Below, piece by piece: positions 42,825 to 47,954 of a DNA stretch of 64,000 nucleotides. The stretch covers positions 62,001 to 126,000 of the forward strand of contig NZ_JALBGD010000010.1 in assembly GCF_023507705.1 (NCBI RefSeq). The letters run 5' to 3'. The stretch comes from Stappia sp. WLB 29. GTDB lineage: Bacteria; Pseudomonadota; Alphaproteobacteria; Rhizobiales; Stappiaceae. The position numbers and the translations under genes are program-made. Positions within the stretch are counted from its first letter, which is position 1; the number at the start of each line of letters is the position of its first letter. The notes below the pieces were generated by a model. That model ran no database searches, was not told where the DNA came from, and saw only the letters and a list, made by a program, of their open reading frames with translations.

Positions 42825-43580
42825 TCAGGGCGCGTCGGGCGTGTCCTTGCCGGCGATCCGGCGGGTGAGAGCCGGGGAGAGGCCCGTGCTGTCCTTCGCC
42901 GGCGGGCGGGCATAACTGCCCTTGTCGGCGCCGGACGGGTGCAGGCGGTGGAGCGAAACCGCCTGCAAAACGGCGGCTTTTACCGGGTCCAGAAGCACCG
43001 CCGGCACCTCGTCGGCGATGTCCTCGGCGAGCCCGGCGATCGGCGCACCGCCGAGTATCAGGATATCCGCATGCGCGGCGGCGCGGCGGCAGGTCTTAAC
43101 CAGCGGTGCGCGCATCTCCTCCGCCACCGCCGCGATGGAGCCGAAGGCGGCATCCGGCGTGAAGGTGCCGGCAAAGCGCGTGCCGAGCCCTGCGCGCGTC
43201 ACCTGCTCCTCGTACCAGGGCGTGAGGCGGGGCGAAAAGGTGACGAAGGCGAAGCGCTCCCCCAGCGCCAGGGCGGCCAGCATCGCCGCTTCGGAAAGGC
43301 CTGACACCGGCAGGTCGAAGAGCTCGCGCGCGGCAGAAAGTCCCGGATCGCCGAACGCGGCGATGACCGCGGCATCGAAGCGTCCCTCGTGCTCCGCCAG
43401 CAGGTCGAGCACGGCGGCGCCGGCGATCTGCGCCTCTGCGCGCGAGGAGATGTAGGGAAACCCTTGGCGCGCCGTCAGGGGCAGCAGCTCGACATCTGCC
43501 GGCAGGACCGTTGTCGCGCTGCGCGCAAGCCGCTGGGTCAGCGCCTCGGTGGTGTTGGGGTTGAGCAGCAGCAGGCGCAT
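42825..43580 (-). CDS. Asp/Glu/hydantoin racemase-like protein lacking both catalytic cysteines
   Basis: A 251-residue protein that starts MRLLLLNPNTTEALT, the hallmark of hydantoin/allantoin racemases. In active members the two acid-base cysteines lie in VIACFxDPGL and VLGCAGM. Here these read VIAAFGDPGL (Ala75) and ILGGAPI (Gly178); the only cysteine left is elsewhere (KTCRR). The fold is likely kept, but classical two-base racemisation should be lost. It may bind a ureide or act as a decarboxylase-like or regulatory relative. A C-terminal tail of about 35 residues is extra. The ATG overlaps the dctM stop (ATGA). Confidence 0.85.
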   Translation of the reverse strand: MRLLLLNPNTTEALTQRLARSATTVLPADVELLPLTARQGFPYISSRAEAQIAGAAVLDLLAEHEGRFDAAVIAAFGDPGLSAARELFDLPVSGLSEAAMLAALALGERFAFVTFSPRLTPWYEEQVTRAGLGTRFAGTFTPDAAFGSIAAVAEEMRAPLVKTCRRAAAHADILILGGAPIAGLAEDIADEVPAVLLDPVKAAVLQAVSLHRLHPSGADKGSYARPPAKDSTGLSPALTRRIAGKDTPDAP

Positions 43581-44860
43581 CAGTAGCCCAGCCTTTCGGG
43601 CAGCCAGGTGACGATGCCGGGAAAGATCATGCAGGCCAGCAGCACGGCATACATCGCCGCGATGAAGGGCCAGCTCTCGCGCACCAACTCGCCCATCCTG
43701 ACGCCCGTGATGCCGCAGACGACGAACAGGACGACACCGACCGGCGGCGTCAGCATGCCGATCACCAGGTTGAAGACGAAGAGAAAGCCGAAATGCAGCG
43801 GGTCGATCCCGTATTGCAGGGCGATGGGATGGAACAACGGCACCAGCATGATGTAGGCGGCGTTGGATTCCAGGAACATGCCGACGACGAGCAGCATCGC
43901 CGCGATGAGGCAGAGGAACAGGAACGGGCTGTCGGTGACGCCTTGCATCAGACCGGCGAGCTTCATCGGCAGCAGGTCGATGGTGAAGAGGAAGGTCACC
44001 GTCGAGGCGAAGGCGATCATCGCGCCCACCAGGGCCGAGGTCTTCGCGGCGGTCAGCAACACGTCCGGCAGGTCGGACAGCTTCAGCTTGCGCGTCACGA
44101 AGAAGCCGAGGACCAGCGCATAGCAGACGCCGACCGCGGCCCCTTCCGTCGGGGTGAAGGCGCCGCCGACGATGCCGCCGATGACCAGAACCGGCATCAG
44201 AAAGACGACGAGGCTGCGCCTGAGCTCGCGCAGGATGTTGGAGAGCGTCACCGGCGTGCCGGCCAGCGGGTAGTTCCGCTTCCAGGCGATCAGCCAGCAC
44301 AGGACCATGAAAAGGGCGAACAGGATCAGCCCGGGAATGACGCCGGACATGAACATGCCGCCGACCGAAACGCTGGACCCGGCCATGAATGCGTAGACGA
44401 TCATCGCGCCGGAGGGCGGGATGATCGGGCCGAGATTGGCGGCCGCCGCCACGATGCCGGTGGAGAAGCCGAGACCGTATTGCTTCCTGAGCGAAGGCAC
44501 GAGCGTGGAGGAGAGGGCCGAGGCGTCGGCGACGGCGGCACCCGAAACGGAGGCGAGACCGGCCCCGGCGACGATGGTCACTTGGGCGAGGCCGCCGCGC
44601 ACCCGGCCGATGAAGGCGTTGGCGAAGTCGACCAGCCTGTCCATGATCCCGCCCTTTAGCATCAGTTCGCCGGCGATCATGAACAGCGGGATCGACATCA
44701 GCGGGAATGAGTTGACCGCGTTCATCAGGCGCGGGGCCAGCACCGCGACGTCGATGCCCGACAGCCACAGGCCGGCCAGCGCCGCAACGCCGAGCGAGAA
44801 GGCGAGCGGCATGCCGAAAAGGGCGAGCACGAGAAAGGCTGCGATGACGAAGAGGCTCAT
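43580..44860 (-). CDS. dctM: TRAP transporter large permease (DctM)
   Basis: A 426-residue membrane protein of about 12 spans. Hallmarks are PLMSIPLFMIAGELMLKGGI, VSGAAVADASAL, and NLGPIIPPSGAMIVYAF. It forms the sodium-driven transport channel for the organic acid bound by the DctP partner. It overlaps dctQ upstream and the racemase-like gene downstream by four bases each, so the set is translationally coupled. Confidence 0.95.
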   Translation of the reverse strand: MSLFVIAAFLVLALFGMPLAFSLGVAALAGLWLSGIDVAVLAPRLMNAVNSFPLMSIPLFMIAGELMLKGGIMDRLVDFANAFIGRVRGGLAQVTIVAGAGLASVSGAAVADASALSSTLVPSLRKQYGLGFSTGIVAAAANLGPIIPPSGAMIVYAFMAGSSVSVGGMFMSGVIPGLILFALFMVLCWLIAWKRNYPLAGTPVTLSNILRELRRSLVVFLMPVLVIGGIVGGAFTPTEGAAVGVCYALVLGFFVTRKLKLSDLPDVLLTAAKTSALVGAMIAFASTVTFLFTIDLLPMKLAGLMQGVTDSPFLFLCLIAAMLLVVGMFLESNAAYIMLVPLFHPIALQYGIDPLHFGFLFVFNLVIGMLTPPVGVVLFVVCGITGVRMGELVRESWPFIAAMYAVLLACMIFPGIVTWLPERLGY

Positions 44861-45342
44861 GCCCGGGGCTCCATCGGGACCAGCGCGAGATGGACGAGAT
44901 GCAGGGCCGAGTGCAGCGCGCCGAGGATGACGGGGAAGAAGAACACGCTCGAGGTGATGTCGAGCGCGCCGAGCCGCTCGGACCATGTGGCCAATGCGAC
45001 GCCGATGGTGGTCCAGAACACGACGCCCATCAGCGCCGCGCCGAGGGCGCTGGTCGCTCGTGCGACGAGGCGGCGAACGCCTACGGGCAGGCGCTCGACC
45101 AGCAGCGTGATCCCCACATGGGTTCCATCGCGGATGCCGAGCGGGATTGCGAGGAAGATCGTCCACACGAAGGCGATGCGGCTGACCTCGTCGGCCCAGT
45201 CGAGCGAGCCGTTGAAGACATAGCGCATCACCACCTGAGCCGAGACCACGGCGACCATGGTGGCCGCACCCAGGATGACGAGGACGCGCGCGCCGGTATC
45301 GGCGCGCGCGAGGACGAAGGTCAGGAGGCGGTCGAGCGCCAT
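44857..45342 (-). CDS. dctQ: TRAP transporter small permease (DctQ)
   Basis: A 161-residue, four-span subunit. The conserved MRYVFNGSLDWADEVSRIAFVW segment (seen in parts) identifies the DctQ family. It partners with DctM. The ATG at 45342 begins MALDRLL; 11 upstream codons in the same frame are not family-like. It starts four bases after the dctP stop. Confidence 0.93.
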   Translation of the reverse strand: MALDRLLTFVLARADTGARVLVILGAATMVAVVSAQVVMRYVFNGSLDWADEVSRIAFVWTIFLAIPLGIRDGTHVGITLLVERLPVGVRRLVARATSALGAALMGVVFWTTIGVALATWSERLGALDITSSVFFFPVILGALHSALHLVHLALVPMEPRA

Positions 45343-45346
45343 CGGA

Positions 45347-46339
45347 TCACATGCCGAGCTTGGCGGTCTCGGCATCCAGCAGCGTCACCAGCTCCGGAGC
45401 GAGGCGAGCCTTGGTCTCGGCGGCGACGCCGGCGGTCTTCTCGCGCAAGGCGGCCGCCAGCTCCGGCGAAACCTCGGTGAAGGTCATGCCCTTGGCGGTG
45501 AGCTGCGCCAGACCCGCTGCATCCTGCTCGGCAGCCAGCTCCCGCTGATAGGCGACGGCCGTCGCCATGGCCTCGCGGACCATCGCCTGTTTTTCCGGGG
45601 CAAGCCCGTCGAACCACTTCTTGTTGCCGACCACGGAGATGAAGTCGAAGAAATGCCCGGTGTTGGAGACGTGCTTCTGCACCTCGGCGTAGCCGGCGAC
45701 GTTGATGATCGCGAACGGGTTCTCCTGGCCGTCGATCACGCCCTGTTCCAGGGCGGAATAGAGCTCCTTGACGTCCATTGCCACCGGGTTGGCGCCGAGC
45801 GCGCGGAAGGTGGCAAGGTGCGTCTCGTTCGGCTGCAGGCGGATCTTCAGCCCCTCGATGTCACTGAGGGCGACCACCGGGCGGACATTGTTGGTCAGGT
45901 GGCGGAAGCCGAGCTCCATGTAGCCGAGGGAGGTCATGCCCTCCTTGGCCAGCATGTCGTCGAGCGCGGTGCCGACCGGCCCATCGGCGATCGTGAAAGC
46001 CGCCTCGCGGCTCGGGAACTGGAACGGCAGGCCGATGACTTCCAGCTCCGGCACGGTGCGGGTCAGGTAAGCGGTGCCCACCCACATCATCTCGATGGCG
46101 CCGATCTTCACGGCCTGTACGTTTTCGGCCGCGCCGCCGAGCTGCTGTGCCGGGAAGACGTTGACGTCGATCTCGCCACCCGACAAGCGCTCGATCTCTT
46201 CCTCGAACCTCGCGATGGCAAGCGAGGAGGAGTGCTCGGTGGCGAAGTTGCCGGCGATGCGGATCGTGTCCTTGGCGTCGGCCATGGTGGCCGACAGGAC
46301 GAGGGCGGCGGAGGCGACAAGCGGGAGAATGGCTTTCAT
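45347..46339 (-). CDS. dctP: TRAP transporter solute-binding protein (DctP), internal start
   Basis: A 330-residue periplasmic binding protein beginning MKAILPLVASAALVLSATMADA, a typical cleavable signal peptide seen as N-region, hydrophobic core and ADA cleavage site. The mature part has the TRAP signature Arg segment (LSDIEGLKIRLQPNETH) and LYSALEQGVIDGQENPF. GGAG lies about ten bases before the ATG, supporting independent translation. The start is in the same frame as the upstream uraD sequence with no stop between them. The ligand is unknown; the ureide-related neighbours suggest a ureido acid or similar carboxylate. Confidence 0.88.
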   Translation of the reverse strand: MKAILPLVASAALVLSATMADAKDTIRIAGNFATEHSSSLAIARFEEEIERLSGGEIDVNVFPAQQLGGAAENVQAVKIGAIEMMWVGTAYLTRTVPELEVIGLPFQFPSREAAFTIADGPVGTALDDMLAKEGMTSLGYMELGFRHLTNNVRPVVALSDIEGLKIRLQPNETHLATFRALGANPVAMDVKELYSALEQGVIDGQENPFAIINVAGYAEVQKHVSNTGHFFDFISVVGNKKWFDGLAPEKQAMVREAMATAVAYQRELAAEQDAAGLAQLTAKGMTFTEVSPELAAALREKTAGVAAETKARLAPELVTLLDAETAKLGM

Positions 46340-46903
46340 GGCTGGGTGCTCCAGGGTTGCGGCGAGGGAGGTCCGGGGCGGTTTCGCGCCCGGCCCGAAG
46401 GCGCGGGCGGCACGGGAGCGGATCACCGAGGCGATCTCCTCCAGCGTGGCGGCATGCTCCTCGGGCGCCGCCGCGGCAAGGCGGCGCTCGAAGGTGGCAA
46501 GAAGGGTCTCAAGGTCGGGAACGCGGTGCAGAGCGATAATGAAAGGATGGGAGAACCGTGCCCGATAGGCGGCGTTGAGTGCGCGCAGCCGGGCGGCATC
46601 GCCTGCCGAAAGCGACAGCAGGCCGAGCCGGGCCTGTTCGCCGGTCGAGGCGTCGGTCATGCGCCCTTCGGCCGCTTCCTCGCCGGCGAGCTCGGGGTGA
46701 GCGGCAAACAGCACCCGCTGGCGCTCCGGGCCGGCAGCAAGGATGGTCTCCGCCAGCGCGGCGGCAAGCGCCGCATCGTCGGCGAAGGGGCGGCTGTCGA
46801 CGGTCAGCTCCACCACCCAGGGCGAACGCTCGACCAGGGGCTCGAGCAGCGCAAGCGCCGTTTCGCGGGAAGCCGAGTTGAGCGTGTCGAGGGCGGAAGT
46901 CAT
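45347..46903 (-). CDS. uraD: Open UraD-DctP reading frame (OHCU decarboxylase followed in frame by TRAP binding protein)
   Basis: From ATG 46903 the frame is open for 518 residues. Residues about 1-172 are an OHCU decarboxylase (uric acid degradation, giving S-allantoin). The catalytic His is in AAHPELAGEEA, the Glu in DASTGEQARLGL, then LNAAYRARFSHPFIIAL and a final helix TLEEIASVIRSRA. A 16-residue Pro/Gly linker leads straight into the DctP signal peptide. Either the cell makes a real fusion with an internal signal, or uraD has lost its stop codon and DctP is mainly made from ATG 46339. The domain identities are secure; the nature of the product is not. Confidence 0.75.
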   Translation of the reverse strand: MTSALDTLNSASRETALALLEPLVERSPWVVELTVDSRPFADDAALAAALAETILAAGPERQRVLFAAHPELAGEEAAEGRMTDASTGEQARLGLLSLSAGDAARLRALNAAYRARFSHPFIIALHRVPDLETLLATFERRLAAAAPEEHAATLEEIASVIRSRAARAFGPGAKPPRTSLAATLEHPAMKAILPLVASAALVLSATMADAKDTIRIAGNFATEHSSSLAIARFEEEIERLSGGEIDVNVFPAQQLGGAAENVQAVKIGAIEMMWVGTAYLTRTVPELEVIGLPFQFPSREAAFTIADGPVGTALDDMLAKEGMTSLGYMELGFRHLTNNVRPVVALSDIEGLKIRLQPNETHLATFRALGANPVAMDVKELYSALEQGVIDGQENPFAIINVAGYAEVQKHVSNTGHFFDFISVVGNKKWFDGLAPEKQAMVREAMATAVAYQRELAAEQDAAGLAQLTAKGMTFTEVSPELAAALREKTAGVAAETKARLAPELVTLLDAETAKLGM

Positions 46904-47015
46904 GGCGGGCCTTTGCCGTCCGGTGTCCTTGTGCCCTGAACGCTAGCCGGCCCTCATCATTGCAATCCATGACATTATCGACAATCCTGCGTTCTAGAAA
47001 TTAGGATGCCTCGAA

Positions 47016-47954
47016 ATGTCGCTCCACCTTGTCCCCCGCGGTCTGCACTATGTCGAGGCCGTTGCCGAGCACGGCTCGATCCAGGCGGCCTCGCGCGCCA
47101 TCGGCATTGCCGCCTCGGCGATCGACCGGCAGATCAAGCTGCTGGAGGACCGGCTCGGGGTGCAACTGTTCGACCGCATGACCACCGGCATGACCTTGTC
47201 CCCGGTGGGGGAGATGTTCGTGGTGCTGGCGCGGCGCTGGCGGGCGGACGAGAACCGCCTGTGGTCCGACGTGAAGCAGATGCAGGGCATAAGCCTCGGC
47301 CATATCCGCCTCGTGACGATGGACAGTCTGGTCAACGGCGTGCTGCCGCGCTTCCTGCACCATGTGGCGGAGGTGTATCCGCGGGTGCGGATCGATGTGG
47401 AGATCGCAACGCCAGACGATGCGACGACCGTGCTCGACCGGGGCGATGCCGATGTCGCGCTCGTCTTCAACCTGCGCCCGCATCGCGACCTGCATGTGGT
47501 GTGGAGCGCGGAGCTGCCGCTGCACTGCGTCGTCGCGCCGGGCCATCCGCTGGCGGAGCTGAGCCAGGTGAGCCTTGCCAAGGTGCGCGACCAAGCAACC
47601 GTCGTGCAGAGCCCGTCGCTGGCGATCCGCCGCATGCTGGAGGCGCGGCACGGCTGGATGTTCTCGGAAAACCGCCCGCCGGTGGTCACCAACTCGCTGC
47701 AACTTCTGAAGCAGCTCGTCGTCTCCGGCAGCCACGCCGCGCTGACCTCGGAGCTGGACACGGCGCAGGAGCTGCTGGACGGGCGCCTCGTCGCCATTCC
47801 CGTGACGGGGCAGAATGTGGTACCCCAAAGCATCGCGCTGGCCATCAGCTCCCGCCGCGCGCTGCCGCGCATCGCCACCCGCGTTGCCGACCTCCTGGCC
47901 GCCGATGTCGCCGTCATGCTCGCCGAGGTGCGGGCGCGCAACCGGTTGCCCTGA
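47016..47954 (+). CDS. LysR-family transcriptional regulator
   Basis: A 312-residue regulator. The N-terminal helix-turn-helix is VAEHGSIQAASRAIGIAASAIDRQIKLLE, seen in its two helices, followed by a periplasmic-binding-like effector domain (HIRLVTMDSLVNGVLPRFL). It diverges from the uraD-dctP frame. The 112-base gap between them is A/T-rich and contains ATTGCAAT at 46959-46966 and ATTATCGACAAT nearby, candidate LysR sites. It most likely controls the TRAP/uraD/racemase operon. Confidence 0.92.
   Translation: MSLHLVPRGLHYVEAVAEHGSIQAASRAIGIAASAIDRQIKLLEDRLGVQLFDRMTTGMTLSPVGEMFVVLARRWRADENRLWSDVKQMQGISLGHIRLVTMDSLVNGVLPRFLHHVAEVYPRVRIDVEIATPDDATTVLDRGDADVALVFNLRPHRDLHVVWSAELPLHCVVAPGHPLAELSQVSLAKVRDQATVVQSPSLAIRRMLEARHGWMFSENRPPVVTNSLQLLKQLVVSGSHAALTSELDTAQELLDGRLVAIPVTGQNVVPQSIALAISSRRALPRIATRVADLLAADVAVMLAEVRARNRLP

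Follow-up and report, generated by a model that had tools for sequence, protein, structure and literature searches.

On the minus strand of the 64,000-nucleotide stretch of DNA analysed here, from the marine bacterium Stappia (hereafter the window), the gene for an OHCU decarboxylase (uraD) runs in frame into the gene for the binding protein of a TRAP transporter (dctP), followed by the two TRAP permease genes and by a gene for a homologue of hydantoin/allantoin racemases, with the gene for a LysR-type regulator on the opposite strand. The features of the locus are the following:

46903..45347, minus: fused open reading frame (ORF) uraD-dctP, with an ATG start, 518 amino acids and no internal stops
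46349..46903, minus: UraD part, residues 1-185, comprising the PF09349 domain (9-165) and a C-terminal tail
46349..46352, minus: GGAG, a Shine-Dalgarno-like site of dctP within the last UraD codons
46340..46348, minus: His-Pro-Ala codons, residues 186-188, joining the ancestral end of UraD to the methionine of DctP
45347..46339, minus: DctP precursor with its own ATG at 46339-46337, 330 amino acids plus stop
46274..46339, minus: MKAILPLVASAALVLSATMADA, a segment resembling a signal peptide (residues 189-210) that becomes internal in the long frame
RTSLAATLEHPAMK: the UraD-DctP junction stretch in the fused product
44857..45375, minus: dctQ, small TRAP permease (PF04290), whose true start is probably slightly downstream
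43580..45166, minus: dctM, large TRAP permease (PF06808 from residue 109)
42825..43580, minus: PF01177 homologue of hydantoin/allantoin racemases, 251 amino acids, both family cysteines replaced
47016..47954, plus: LysR-type regulator, divergent

UraD and the DctP precursor are both complete, and no stop codon separates them. Pfam profiles place OHCU_decarbox at residues 9-165 (117.1 bits, cut-off 24) and DctP (PF03480) at residues 221-496 (250.1 bits, cut-off 23.4), and the NCBIfam models TIGR03164 and TIGR00787 match the same ORF with 112.2 bits (cut-off 96.25) and 227.9 bits (cut-off 175.05), respectively. An earlier sequence-only reading had described the codons across 46337-46410 as sense throughout and the DctP ATG as lying in the uraD frame, and both statements hold for this stop-free ORF of 518 residues, in which each domain scores above its cut-off. 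The product consists, in order, of UraD with its usual tail (ending in TLE), a new His-Pro-Ala and the DctP precursor; the tail is also found in relatives, whose UraD ends at the same TLE or nearby.

When aligned to the chains of the solved UraD structures 2o8i and 2o70, the fused UraD keeps the HP, EQ and R..PF motifs, which we take to be the active-site motifs of OHCU decarboxylase, with a catalytic role. Residues H69, P70, E89, Q90, F117, P120 and F121 are invariant in 16 of 16 alignment rows and R116 is nearly so, and the fused UraD has, judging from its sequence, probably kept its activity. A second, standalone UraD, followed by allantoicase, is encoded elsewhere in the same genome at L063:8826-10490 (contig C23 of genome G000), and it scores 212.9 bits against TIGR03164, compared with 112.2 for the fused UraD. 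The standalone gene is the genome's housekeeping copy, to which the transporter-linked uraD is an addition, and the fused UraD may thus be dispensable.

In the DctP half, residues A208-D209-A210 resemble, by eye, a signal peptidase I site, and A210 is invariant in 16 of 16 rows. The signal-like segment is N-terminal only when translation begins at 46339 and is otherwise internal. AlphaFold2 models were usable only for whichever half had alignment rows: with UraD rows, the model supports a UraD fold over residues 1-170, where pLDDT block means were 68-94, and shows a tail of low confidence (171-190) and a helix (187-206), and with DctP relatives aligned, DctP was partly confident. Mean pLDDT was low overall for both alignments (58.5 and 56.1), and the models carry no information on contact between the domains.

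The window has a G+C content of 68.3%, and over the stretch of the fused ORF one of the other five frames has no stops and another has two. Antisense to the entire fused ORF lies a 560-codon open frame (45257-46939, plus strand), which we attribute to the high G+C and which has no gene-like signs. As a control for chance frames, seven DctP paralogues with long open frames were inspected, out of 33 DctP matches. The open frame extends 164-878 codons upstream of the DctP match in six of the seven and not at all in the seventh, and third-position G+C (GC3) in these extensions is 0.40-0.64 compared with 0.85-0.94 within the gene, which argues that they are shadows of other frames and not coding there. 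GC3 in the fused ORF is 0.81 for UraD, 0.90 for the UraD tail and 0.91 for DctP. A chance open frame in G+C-rich DNA was rejected as an explanation, since both halves score as proteins and have coding GC3.

A lost stop could also be an error of sequencing or assembly, for which a short indel would suffice in DNA of such high G+C, but we consider this exceedingly improbable because the window shares its junction with two other assemblies, from which it differs by 110 and 104 nucleotides within the ORF. The locus was found in three of 14 genomes of the genus (window, G008 and G012), is collinear across them and has a stop-free junction in all three, and the family-wide tally is 3 of 87. The fused ORF recurs at L009 and at L010/L011, the last of these from Stappia indica SBBC 49. 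The sequence-only reading had proposed looking for the same frame in related genomes and had named a stop codon in close relatives as evidence against it; the frame is present in the two further Stappia genomes and neither congeneric copy (0/2) has a stop. Agreement of the three genomes thus rules out an error peculiar to one assembly.

Outside Stappia, uraD and dctP are neighbours but separate genes. A scan of named genomes returned 44 loci, namely 1 from Stappia, 20 in which UraD adjoins DctP and 23 in which DctP was found but UraD was not detected, and the non-Stappia uraD-dctP pairs considered here number 23 (L012-L030, L040, L055, L059 and L061, the last three from other searches). The uraD stop is kept in 23 of 23 of these copies. 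In 18 it lies no more than 23 nucleotides from the dctP start or overlaps it, six of the 18 having a four-nucleotide ATGA overlap of the uraD stop with the dctP start, and the remaining five gaps are 37-81 nucleotides (L019, L026, L028, L030 and L055). Spacing and overlap of this kind are typical of translational coupling, and the uraD-dctP pair is probably coupled in this way. In five of the 23 copies (L012, L013, L026, L040 and L055) dctP is in the uraD frame, behind the stop. In L024 and L026 the UraD match lacks its N-terminal part and begins at residues 52 and 23, respectively. The presence of the stop in all of these distant relatives shows that the fusion, though present here, is derived and, on the sequences compared, restricted to one Stappia lineage.

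The junctions themselves suggest how the stop was lost. The Stappia junction reads GGAG-CACCCAGCC-ATG, and the closest other junction, that of L061, reads GGAG-TAACCCAGCC-ATG, with one additional base. TAA follows GGAG in L040 and L012, where the 9-nucleotide spacing and the frame are those of Stappia. GGAG is found at the equivalent place in 10 of 10 aligned junction sequences, and CAC at 46348-46346 occupies the place of the TAA that trails GGAG in several relatives. Because the Stappia frame differs from that of several relatives, the stop may have been lost either through a substitution plus a one-nucleotide deletion or through substitutions alone.

The surrounding cluster is found again in alpha- and gammaproteobacteria: a LysR-type regulator is divergent from uraD-dctP-dctQ-dctM, and the PF01177 homologue of racemases is often present. 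Among the 20 non-Stappia UraD loci of the named-genome scan, dctQ and dctM lie downstream in all 20, a divergent LysR is present in 19 and the racemase homologue is found in the fetched flank of 12. The PF06808 match to dctM begins only at residue 109, which places the true dctM start downstream of the one listed. The gene for the racemase homologue begins on the last base of dctM, at 43580, and this one-base overlap is a further indication that the cluster is tightly coupled. Among solved structures, the racemase homologue is best matched by that of allantoin racemase (5lfd, E = 2.7e-24), which fits ureide chemistry. Hydantoin/allantoin racemases have two catalytic cysteines; at these sites 3qvj reads IACFGDPG and LGCGGM, compared with IAAFGDPG and LGGAPI in the window protein, and cysteine was found at them in 0 of 20 aligned tblastn pieces, where the place was covered. 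Because the replacement is common to the aligned relatives, the protein may catalyse a different reaction. The gene neighbours suggest that the transporter's substrate may be a purine or ureide compound, on which a literature search gave only a general 'purine TRAP transporter'. The sequence-only reading had supposed that a fused product would link a purine/ureide enzyme with import of its substrate, but the two genes already adjoin in the conserved unfused cluster; the link between UraD and the transporter is thus part of the ancestral operon structure and not a product of the fusion.

Substitution rates were compared within and outside the fused lineage. UraD of the window has dS of 0.277 and 0.268 and omega of 0.089 and 0.103 against G008 and G012, respectively, and mature DctP has dS of 0.287 and 0.243 and omega of 0.045 and 0.059. 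The uraD differences in the fused lineage amount to 8.7-9.7 nonsynonymous versus 31-32 synonymous. In four unfused comparison pairs, which were chosen by us, omega is 0.073-0.229 for UraD and 0.029-0.112 for DctP; the fused UraD does not exceed these and thus shows no relaxation in its lineage, and its omega of 0.09-0.10 indicates that UraD remains under purifying selection. Decay of uraD is unsupported by omega.

The linker is unchanged (0 of 69 nucleotides) in all three Stappia pairs. In simulations with rates set by codon position, zero linker changes had P = 0.005-0.007 for the two pairs that include the window and were expected often (0.23) for G008-G012. Identity spans the junction over 110 nucleotides between the window and each of G008 and G012, and G008 and G012 share a 600-nucleotide identical run across it (ORF nucleotides 436-1035) despite 32 differences over the whole ORF. 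The chance of runs of these lengths anywhere in the ORF was 0.025 and 0.041 (110 nucleotides) and 0.00025 (600 nucleotides; 4000 simulations each). Given runs this improbable, the junction may have been spread by recombination, and the 600-nucleotide identity suggests recent recombination there. The fusion may postdate the divergence of the sequences on either side and, if the junction spread recently, the low omega of UraD may be partly older than the fusion. We make no claim of selection on the frame because the identity spans synonymous sites and the dctP initiation region and may reflect recent exchange.

Fusions elsewhere were sought in several ways. The patterns of the named-genome scan included the junction peptide EHPAMKAI, which should favour fused relatives, and the fused form was found only in the Stappia record; none of the other 43 loci is fused, 23 of them being DctP alone. 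On plasmids, 143 records matched, none covering 80% of the query, and no fused copy was found. Class and family samples yielded matches in 2 of 385, 2 of 394 and 6 of 394 genomes and no further fused copy; the best three candidates were scored for most genomes, the window's own genome was re-matched once, and every other match was either checked for the stop or was an already counted locus. A limited search of the literature returned no UraD-DctP fusion, which is a weak negative. The earlier statement that no UraD-DctP fusion is established thus stands as far as the genomes searched, where none was met outside the genus, and is less secure for print. From these limited searches the UraD-DctP fusion appears to be new.

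We consider it likely that the locus is a lineage-specific gene fusion that arose through loss of a stop codon in a tightly spaced pair. As the junctions show, uraD, the first gene of the cluster, lost its stop beside the dctP ribosome-binding site in a forebear of at least three Stappia genomes, and the frame now continues through His-Pro-Ala into the whole dctP precursor, with the GGAG and ATG of dctP retained. With no stop left, every complete translation from the uraD start would yield the 518-residue UraD-DctP, while most DctP would still be started at its own ATG, leave through Sec and be processed by signal peptidase, so that transport is unaffected. UraD function would be kept in the fusion, given that its sequence is constrained and its conserved motifs are intact. 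Less certain is what becomes of the long product: the internal signal peptide might serve as a cleavable signal-anchor, with DctP released outside and UraD bound to the membrane by a hydrophobic tail, or it might be ignored or clipped, with UraD staying cytosolic. A natural polyprotein, in which the internal signal is cut, the enzyme is anchored beside the importer, DctP is freed and the second start adds further DctP, strikes us as rather unlikely. The sequence-only reading had offered a fused protein and two proteins from nested starts as a choice; the two are not mutually exclusive, because the uraD start would give the fusion and the internal start DctP.

An alternative interpretation is that the fusion is a neutral accident, in which the DctP started at its own ATG is all that counts; the fused product would be made but broken down, and decarboxylation would fall to the standalone UraD. 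The second UraD beside allantoicase, with its far higher TIGR03164 score, and the retained GGAG and ATG of dctP are consistent with such an accident, but the omega of the fused uraD shows no decay, even if the constraint may partly predate the fusion, and we consider this interpretation improbable. We think it quite improbable that the fusion is a functional unit, with UraD tethered to the binding protein (as a cut polyprotein or a membrane-anchored enzyme) and decarboxylation taking place beside uptake. The frame, the linker and the UraD motifs have been kept, the unchanged linker is rarely expected in the two window pairs, and uraD and dctP already share one cluster; however, the membrane should separate UraD from DctP, an unchanged linker is often expected in the closer pair G008-G012, its identity at the nucleotide level may be due to the ribosome-binding site, to recombination or to chance, and the searches met no UraD-DctP fusion outside the genus. 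Termination might instead persist at the junction, for example if ribosomes slip into the frame of the TGA in ATGA, so that a separate UraD is made. The ATGA is present in Stappia and contains the uraD stop in six of 21 relatives examined, but none of the four junction sequences folded has RNA structure beyond that of its shuffles (z = 0.94, 0.04, 1.30 and 1.70), and we regard continued termination as highly improbable.

If the locus is a fusion by stop loss, it has been caught near its beginning, and the ancestral state can be set against the fused one base by base. Because the partners come from opposite sides of the membrane, the fate of the fusion is directly testable. The conserved and apparently little-studied cluster, which combines an OHCU decarboxylase paralogue with a TRAP transporter, is a lead to the substrate. 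Were the fusion merely tolerated, annotation would name one 518-residue hybrid and hide the separately started DctP.

The nearest known systems are the unfused clusters of Chelativorans, Aquibium, Mesorhizobium L-8-3, Celeribacter, Marinobacterium and others, which have the same genes in the same order with a divergent LysR, and whose UraD and DctP (residues 189-518) are 42-73% and 67-86% identical to those of Stappia, but which differ in having their own uraD stop (23/23 copies). A 'purine TRAP transporter' and allantoin racemase are listed among the purine-use genes of ocean bacteria (PMC11698098), which resembles the present locus in associating a TRAP transporter with uraD and allantoin racemase in purine use and makes the functional link less new; its passages on these genes mention no fusion, and its transporter may or may not be the orthologue of the one in Stappia. 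Fusions of UraD-like domains are represented by NCBIfam NF010373 (an N-terminal domain with N-carbamoyl-L-amino acid hydrolase), which matches residues 2-170 with 86.3 bits, below its cut-off of 1087, and by NF010371 (an allantoicase model with a UraD-like C-terminal part), which matched the standalone UraD in its C-terminal part. The partners in these two models are cytoplasmic enzymes, whereas the Stappia partner is an exported binding protein. The FbcH cytochrome b/c1 precursor of Bradyrhizobium, encoded in one frame, has an internal signal sequence and releases a periplasmic protein. It offers a precedent for how an internal signal can work; at the Stappia locus the only sign of such processing is the signal-like segment, and the first part of FbcH is a membrane protein, whereas UraD is a soluble enzyme. 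Stop-loss fusion, the logic of the operon and the parts themselves are of known kinds, and it is the particular fusion of UraD to DctP that appears new.
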